The notes below the pieces were generated by a model, which was given only the letters and a program-made list of their open reading frames with translations, ran no database searches and had not been told where the DNA came from. Source: Thiohalobacter sp. (GTDB lineage Bacteria; Pseudomonadota; Gammaproteobacteria; Thiohalobacterales; Thiohalobacteraceae). Taken from it: 64,000 bases of DNA. The stretch lies in NCBI RefSeq assembly GCF_027000115.1, contig NZ_JALTON010000037.1, positions 1 through 64,000 of the forward strand, read 5' to 3'. Position 1 is the first letter of the stretch. Every line of letters starts with the position of its first letter. Positions 21,973-36,378 of this stretch are shown piece after piece. The translations under genes and the position numbers were made by a program.

Positions 21973-23927
<1,955 letters not shown>

Positions 23928-23945
23928 GCCAGTCTCCTTTCAGTA

Positions 23946-24226
23946 TTAACCCGGTAACCAAATATGTCGTGTTCAGGATGCAGAGAAAGCCGCTGAACAA
24001 GGCGTGGCTCGCAGGCAATGGCCCAGCCCTTGGCAAGAGCCACAACGCCGGACAGGGGCTTTCTCTGCATCCCTTACCTATTCAAGATCGAGGGAAAGGC
24101 CGGGCTGTGCCGGTCCACAGTCTGCGTTGTCGTCGCTTGCTGTAAGGGTGCTACAGCGGCGCGCCGACGCCTTGCTGTGGACCGGCACAGCACGGCTGAA
24201 CACGACATATTTGGTTGCCGGGTTAA
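23946..24226. mobile_element. 281-bp MITE-like element with 31-bp inverted ends, inserted in TA
   Basis: Ends 23946-23976 and 24196-24226 are inverted copies of 31 bp with one mismatch. TA dinucleotides at 23944-23945 and 24227-24228 form the target-site duplication, typical of the IS630/Tc1-mariner group. Two further perfect inverted pairs form internal arms: 23977-23991 with 24058-24072 (15 bp) and 24104-24120 with 24175-24191 (17 bp), so either strand could fold as a three-arm cruciform. No open reading frame for a transposase. It supplies the present merT stop codon. Confidence 0.85.
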
Positions 24227-24561
24227 TAAAACAGGGGCGCATACCAGGGGAAGGCCAGCAGTGCCAGGAGTGGAATGCTGACCAGCCAGAACAGCCGCCG
24301 CTGGTTGCGCAGGGTGCGGGGATCGGCGCAGGCCTGTCCCGGTTCACAGGCGGGCGGGCGCAGGTAGAGGTGGCGAAAGGCCAGGGCCAGGAACAGCAGG
24401 GTGATGGCGACGAAGAGCGGGCGCCAGGGTTCCAGCGCCGTGAGCTGGCTGATCCAGGCGCCGCCCAGGCCCAGGGTCAGCAGGACCAGCGGCGCGACAC
24501 AGCACAGTGAGGCACCGATGCCGGCAACCACGGCCGCCCAGAGGGAGCGGTTGGGTCTCAT
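24223..24561 (-). CDS. merT: MerT mercuric ion transporter
   Basis: 112 residues from the ATG at 24561, with GGAGGA upstream. Three membrane helices; the first has the vicinal pair Cys20-Cys21 in ASLCCVAPLVLL and the cytoplasmic loop has ACEPGQAC, the two Hg(II)-binding pairs of MerT. It carries Hg(II) into the cytoplasm for MerA. The C-terminus ends in APLFY as in other MerT proteins; the stop TAA lies inside the adjacent inserted element, but removing the element also leaves LFY followed by a stop. Confidence 0.9.
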   Translation of the reverse strand: MRPNRSLWAAVVAGIGASLCCVAPLVLLTLGLGGAWISQLTALEPWRPLFVAITLLFLALAFRHLYLRPPACEPGQACADPRTLRNQRRLFWLVSIPLLALLAFPWYAPLFY

Positions 24562-26865: not shown

Positions 26866-26904
26866 ATGAGCGTTTCCGTCCGCATCGACGACACCCTGAA
26901 GGCC
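26866..26904 (+). pseudogene. Truncated antitoxin-like N-terminus at the island boundary
   Basis: An ATG at 26866 begins MSVSVRIDDTLKA, the opening of RelB/DinJ-type ribbon-helix-helix antitoxins, and then breaks off exactly where the 189-bp repeat begins (26899); the frame continues only through repeat sequence. No toxin follows. It looks like a gene cut by the integration event. Short, so the family call rests on 13 residues. Confidence 0.5.
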
Positions 26905-27087
26905 AACCCGTCCGGGTTGGCCTTGCGGTATTGGTGGAGGCGGCGGGAATCGACACTTAGGACCTCCTGCGGAGGTCCATCAAGTGTACCTGCGCCTCGC
27001 TTCGGCAACCCGCAAACGCGGGCTCTCATCCACACCACCCCCACCAGACAAAAAGGGCCGCCTTGCGGCGGCCCTTTATGTTTGGTG
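26899..27087. repeat. Left 189-bp direct repeat flanking the restriction island
   Basis: Same length as 35832-36020 and about 93% identical (14 mismatches by eye). Contents in order: a 26-bp perfect hairpin (26899-26924), a 23-bp copy of the tmRNA 3' end (26931-26953), a second hairpin (GGACCTCC/GGAGGTCC with flanking ACACTT/AAGTGT), a copy of the ssrA terminator (~27050-27077) and TTTGGTG. After 27087 the sequence diverges from the right copy, which continues into ssrA. Confidence 0.9.
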
Positions 27088-35831: not shown

Positions 35832-35857
35832 AAGGCCAACCCGGATGGGTTGGCCTT
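35832..35857 (-). terminator. Old terminator beside a tmRNA 3'-end remnant
   Basis: AAGGCCAACCC and GGGTTGGCCTT around GGAT, with a TTTTT run on the minus strand. It follows the displaced CCACCA copy by a few bases, so it may be the original ssrA terminator. Confidence 0.7.
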
Positions 35858-35984
35858 GGGAATTTGGTGGAGGCGGCGGGAATCGACACTTAGGACCTCC
35901 TGCGGAGGTCCATCAAGTGTACCTGCGCTTCGCTCCGGCAACCCGCATACGCGGATTCTCATCCACACCACCCCCACCAAACAA

Positions 35985-36010
35985 AAAGGGCCACCTTGCG
36001 GCGGCCCTTT
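35985..36010 (-). terminator. Current ssrA terminator
   Basis: On the minus strand AAAGGGCCGCC pairs with GGTGGCCCTTT (one G-U) around GCAA, followed by TTG T-rich sequence, six bases after the tmRNA CCA end. Confidence 0.8.
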
Positions 36011-36015
36011 ATGTT

Positions 36016-36378
36016 TGGTGGAGGCGGCGGGAATCGAACCCGCGTCCGTGAGCTCTCCGCCCTCGGCTCTACATGCTTATCCGCGTCTATTCGTTTAACC
36101 CATGGCTACCCGACGGGCAGGGAAAACCATGGGCGATCCCGGTTGGGTTTTAACGGATCCGCGCCGGGAGCGCTTCACCGCGATCCTGTGAGAGTCGACG
36201 CCCCGAACCTGAACGCACAGGCACGGCTTCAGTGGGACGGCACCCTACTGGGTTTTAAGCAGCGAGTGCGTAGTTGTCGTCGTTGGCAACTATATTTTGC
36301 AGATGGATTTACGAGGAAATCTGCATCCTCGGCATGCACCTCGGGTTTCGCAACCCACGTCGAAACCAGGTCGCCCCC
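36016..36378 (-). ncRNA. ssrA: Transfer-messenger RNA
   Basis: 363 nt. The 5' end GGGGGCGACCTGGTTTCGACG and the 3' end CGGGTTCGATTCCCGCC...CCACCA form the tRNA-like domain: GGGGGCG pairs with CGCCTCC (one G-U) as acceptor stem. The tag reading frame (36255-36287, minus) reads GCC AAC GAC GAC AAC TAC GCA CTC GCT GCT TAA, giving ANDDNYALAA. Rescues stalled ribosomes with SmpB, encoded just upstream. A sigma70 promoter precedes it by about 45 nt. Confidence 0.95.

Follow-up and report, generated by a model that had tools for sequence, protein, structure and literature searches.

The merT-merP junction

Within the window, i.e., the whole stretch of 64,000 nucleotides analyzed here, merT and a merP-like gene lie on the minus strand on either side of a small element (Table 1). 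An earlier note, made from the letters of the DNA, had described this element as 281 bp long with 31-bp inverted ends carrying one mismatch, splitting merT from merP, supplying the merT stop codon and carrying no transposase gene; all of this is confirmed, only short ORFs being found in the 281 bp. The two internal arm pairs reported in the note are also present but are not perfect, as 23976-23995/24053-24072 and 24099-24120/24175-24196 are each 95% complementary. What had been overlooked is that both internal arms belong to a single type of hairpin, which is conserved and widespread. The predicted fold of the element reaches -172.9 kcal/mol, compared with a mean of -99.4 (SD 5) for 200 dinucleotide shuffles, none of which (0/200) folds as strongly (z = -14.7). 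Neither an outward promoter (consensus scan) nor an IHF site was found in the element.

Table 1. Coordinates of the mini-element, its parts and the adjoining mer genes in the window
Feature	Position	Strand	Remarks
Whole mini-element including both flanking TA	23944..24228	.	285 bp; 281 bp without TA
Left terminal inverted repeat	23946..23976	+	31 bp; begins TTAACCCGGTAACC
Right terminal inverted repeat	24196..24226	-	31 bp; one mismatch to left repeat
Arm A, 93-nt conserved hairpin unit	23978..24070	+	core CAAGGC...AACGCCG 23998-24050; E 1.1e-14 (covariance model)
Arm B, inverted second copy of 93-nt hairpin unit	24102..24194	-	core 24122-24174; E 2.7e-16 (covariance model)
Linker joining arms A and B	24071..24101	.	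31 nt; coordinates from covariance-model matches
merT	24223..24561	-	PF02411; last codon and TAA stop (24223-24225) formed with element sequence
merP-like gene	23583..23927	-	HMA domain; ribosome site AAGGAG 23934-23939 retained

When the element and one TA are taken out and the flanks are joined, the minus strand reads CTG TTT TAC TGA, then AAGGAG, ACTGGC and ATG (CTGTTTTACTGAAAGGAGACTGGCATG), and the reconstructed junction is TTTTACTGAAAGG. The LFY-TGA end and the AAGGAG site of the earlier reconstruction stand, but merP would start 12 nt past the end of the stop, the 15 nt claimed being the distance from its first base. The present MerT ends in APLFY-TAA with the stop inside the element, and the protein is unaltered by the insertion: TAC has become TAT and is followed by a fresh TAA. 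Because the MerT sequence is unchanged and the merP ribosome site is in place, both proteins should still be made, judging from the reading frames. A strong fold would now separate merT from merP in the mRNA, and any consequence for expression is hypothetical. As MITE insertions go, the one in the mer operon is neat and close to neutral. Regarding the MerP-like protein itself, a lipobox-like LTGC follows its signal sequence, and it may be a lipoprotein, in contrast to the usual soluble periplasmic form.

Relatives of MerT are found in 63 of 369 gammaproteobacterial genomes and, the window's genus being represented by one genome, the junctions compared are those of MerT relatives in other genomes. 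The element is absent from the stretch 3' of merT in all 29 best loci besides the window. As the earlier note would predict for empty sites, these relatives have merT-merP junctions of the reconstructed type with nothing inserted, and in several of them, e.g., L297 and L300, MerT ends in LFY followed by TGA; in this set, no merP is seen within the stretch read in L304 and L308, and the next gene in L323 does not look merP-like. Empty sites were also sought by flank matching among the retrieved element loci, with no convincing case. The relatives' junctions agree with the claim that the insertion is precise and can be reconstructed. That it is recent is conjectural, the copies being 3-9% apart and the genome giving no helper match. 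TA is present at both borders in nearly all copies of the element. Because TA is its own reverse complement, a TA duplication is inseparable from a longer inverted repeat, and it is the reading-frame reconstruction together with the relatives' junctions that favors target duplication as the probable origin of the TA.

Elsewhere in the window, two direct repeats of 189 nt (26899-27087 and 35832-36020) are 93% identical and start with a palindromic AAGGCCAACCCG stretch; the approximately 9 kb between them includes type I restriction-modification-like genes.

Copies of the element and a candidate IS630-type helper

The earlier note had proposed an IS630-type helper, and had suggested searching for further copies and for a full IS630 element sharing the ends. 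The window genome contains five full copies with 91-97% identity, as well as two 195-bp one-arm copies, 82-89 bp copies and solo ends. Another genome (G001) harbors at least 10 full-length copies at approximately 70% identity, and an exact search for the end pattern recovers 87 stretches in Sedimenticola, Thiodiazotropha, Thiolapillus, Tenderia and others. Most full copies measure 280-289 bp and a few are longer. Plasmid and phage collections searched with the 285-bp element gave no match. In the window genome, the solo ends of L047 and L048 (C38, C46) are joined to GTTCAGACAAT(T/C)GTGAGACG, a sequence similar to the left end that the L243 copy of IS630 displays.

A complete IS630 element of 1,095 bp is found in a Chromatiales MAG (L248), encoding a 341-aa transposase (NF033545, 226 bits) and displaying the 14-bp TATTAACCCGGCAA at both ends. 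With its TA, the left end of the window element is one base off over the first 14 bases (TATTAACCCGGTAA here), and the left end of L252 is also TATTAACCCGGCAA. Moreover, an IS630-type gene in G001 has the end of the mini-element family as its right end. The guess of an IS630-type helper is supported by these matches, the full IS630 element with matching ends being in another MAG. No IS630 gene was found in the genome of the window itself, which is a 63-contig draft. As a further candidate helper, a 1.4-kb end pair in G001 (L229) was rejected, as it corresponds to an IS4-like insertion into a small copy; the IS4-like transposon has CTAGTGTCCGG ends and lies inside that family copy (G001:C1:2437396-2442771).

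The mer-site element has inverted ends, no transposase gene, dispersed copies and, in other genomes, an IS630 with matching ends, as expected of an IS630-type MITE, and the evidence supports its identification as a TA-inserted, IS630-type mini-element between merT and merP. Working in trans, a transposase of the IS630 type would have recognized the TATTAACCCGG-type ends of this non-autonomous miniature transposon, and insertion would have occurred at a TA that overlaps the final merT codon. It could also be supposed that the element is a plain deletion derivative of IS630, with leftover IS sequence as its interior: the 14-bp ends are common to the element and the IS630 of L248, and the likeness to the IS630 copy in L243 extends further at its right end. 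However, the sequence in common with the L248 element is confined to approximately 14 terminal bases, both L248 and L252 diverging directly after the 14-bp end; the L248 transposase gene begins at most about 45 bp from the end, leaving no space for an arm; and the interior is common to elements with other ends. With only some 14 bp in common, a deletion derivative is disfavored and seems highly improbable.

A twin hairpin under unrelated ends

An alignment of full copies reveals conserved loops in both arms and a relationship between them, arm B being inverted with respect to arm A. The 93-nt unit consists of an outer stem of approximately 20 nt, a 53-nt core and the other side of the outer stem, and the core is laid out as CAAGGC, stem, tip, stem and AACGCNG. 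This 53-nt core length is found in 61 of 90 arms less than 75% alike. The arm ends are variable. Over 44 arms, 93.8% of core pairs are standard and covariation reaches 0.751, against a mean of 0.249 for shuffled and at most 0.16 for slid alignments. The letters CAAGG and AA were fixed by the search pattern, and their invariance in the set so collected carries no weight; alignment A1 was likewise collected by motif. Independent support for the unit comes from the covariance model, because it recovers the hairpin widely.

At E <= 1e-3, the covariance model finds the arm in 119 of 369 gammaproteobacterial genomes, i.e., in 93 of 272 genera. With the threshold set at E <= 1e-4, 89 of 399 Pseudomonadota genomes have it, and some of these are not gammaproteobacterial. 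The E-values come from a shortened calibration, and arm copy numbers are lower bounds, as scoring was limited to the 10 or 11 best candidates of each genome. A plasmid of Azotobacter chroococcum carries the arm, and look-alikes on Magnetococcus and Methylophaga plasmids score below the covariance-model threshold. In most loci of other genomes the arms form inverted pairs; among 202 arms from the motif search, 120 have an outward-facing inverted partner, 79 have no partner detectable by the pattern and 3 are otherwise arranged.

These pairs sit between ends of approximately 33 bp of many unrelated sequences, including TATTAACCCGG, TACTAATGAGAACG, CTAGTACTCC, CTAGTGTCCTGTC and GGGTCTGTTGAC, and the elements bearing them are mostly flanked by TA or CTAG. 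Single-arm elements with the same arm motif occur in L102 (2040-2230 and 4495-4690), with GGAAGCTCTGATT or GGAACCTCTGATT ends and a 4-bp direct repeat, CTAA, which we take to resemble IS5-type targets. As larger autonomous elements with arms around a gene, L102 and L270 were rejected, both being separate small elements. The 93-nt hairpin unit is shown to be separate from IS630 and common to elements with many unrelated ends across Pseudomonadota, and this reuse of a conserved twin-hairpin module under many transposon ends is the wider finding.

L112 (7385-8000) has a head-to-tail row of three twin-hairpin elements that differ in their ends and share CTAG where they meet, an arrangement that would result if every new element had gone in at the margin of the one before. 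One of the twin-hairpin families has the end TAGGGTCTGTTGAC, which is also contained in Legionella primers near lpg2920-21 (primer list in PMC12457610), and on this match Legionella may carry that family too.

Proposed recognition of the hairpin and comparison with known systems

The unit is structured and fixed in size, its loops are conserved and its stems covary. Together with its independence of the ends and its presence in about one-third of the gammaproteobacterial genera sampled and in other Pseudomonadota, this implies a common recognition step. While it can be hypothesized that this step takes place on DNA or on RNA, the counts of G.T and A.C pairs bear on the choice; in these counts shared ancestry is handled by identity clustering alone. 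On pairs common to the structures of both strands, G.T and A.C are about equal. In motif-oriented outer stems, the G.T excess is confined to positions 5-8 (64 vs 4), where fixed T.G positions lie on the CAAGGC strand, and the distal outer stem (positions 9-17) has 22 G.T vs 20 A.C; stem 2 and the tip display a smaller G.T excess, mostly at single positions. A stem-wide strand bias, considered as proof of a single-strand RNA fold, was withdrawn, as it derives mainly from T.G positions 5-8 and the distal stem is unbiased. Wobbles are fixed at particular positions of the hairpin, the stems being otherwise largely strand-neutral and Watson-Crick paired. Because the outer stem, away from the fixed wobbles, has G.T no more often than A.C, the evidence leans toward recognition at the DNA rather than the RNA level.

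The hairpins would most likely be recognized as folded DNA, either as an extruded cruciform or as a single strand in replication, by a putative factor indifferent to the transposon ends, and the inverted pair would supply one correctly oriented hairpin copy per DNA strand. Alternatively, the hairpins could act as RNA, read-through in either direction containing one right-oriented arm that is bound by a protein or cut, altering mRNA stability or shielding neighboring sequence. The conserved internal loops, the covarying stems, the fixed T.G on the CAAGGC strand with the smaller excess in stem 2 and tip, and the location in a transcribed operon are in line with such a role, but the distal outer stem lacks a G.T excess and Rfam offers no match, which makes RNA action rather unlikely. 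The equal rarity of G.T and A.C mismatches in the ends and distal stems would also agree with palindromes maintained by template-switch correction, the hairpins having no present function and their copies hitch-hiking on the ends. However, conservation of the 53-nt core length, the unpaired loop letters and the fixed wobbles extends to distant genomes and to elements with unrelated ends; palindrome correction would not preserve these features, and a lack of function is therefore very doubtful. Taken as a whole, an IS630-mobilized mini-transposon carrying twin hairpins recognized as folded DNA is the explanation we consider probable, the points against it being the window's own genome with no IS630 match and, in stem 2 and the tip, individual positions with excess G.T, as RNA folding would likewise produce.

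Among known small elements, RUP of Streptococcus pneumoniae (107 bp, mobilized by IS630-Spn1; reviewed in PMC2229807) is similarly gene-free and TA-flanked, with ends matching those of an IS630 element, but it is described as one long stem-loop, with no pair of inverted conserved hairpin units. In Caulobacter and Brucella, CIR elements share the form of two arms joined by a linker and expose GANTC in a loop (reviewed in PMC2229807); terminal inverted repeats are unreported for them, whereas the mer-site element has long inverted ends and no GANTC, and hence no such exposed methylation site. REP/BIME sequences, associated with RAYT transposases, are palindromes of 20-40 bp with a GTAG or CGTC tag at one end (PMC3733652). 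They resemble the arms in being imperfect hairpins whose irregularities are conserved and which often occur as inverted pairs, but the arms have variable ends in place of a foot tag and, as 93-nt units, lie between long inverted ends with TA.

Rfam gave one sub-threshold match to a eukaryotic miRNA in the window and no above-threshold match on the arms of 12 further arm-bearing loci. No description of the twin hairpin was found in Rfam or in papers, the literature search covering open-access text and sequence strings, and the unit appears undescribed. It is an evenly balanced proposition that the twin hairpin is an independent module defining an undescribed superfamily that extends over much of Pseudomonadota, with one core under unrelated ends (IS630-like with TA, and IS5-like with a 4-bp repeat in at least one locus) and acted on by a putative factor. 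The CAAGGC/AACGC motif and the covariance model make the hairpin directly searchable. By description only, QMITE2/CbsR16 of Coxiella burnetii, a MITE with a small hairpin form and 83-100 nt matches in other bacteria (PMC5896051), is a possible relative of the arm: its stem is conserved and its tip divergent, but direct repeats of 7-9 bp are reported for it (PMC5896051).
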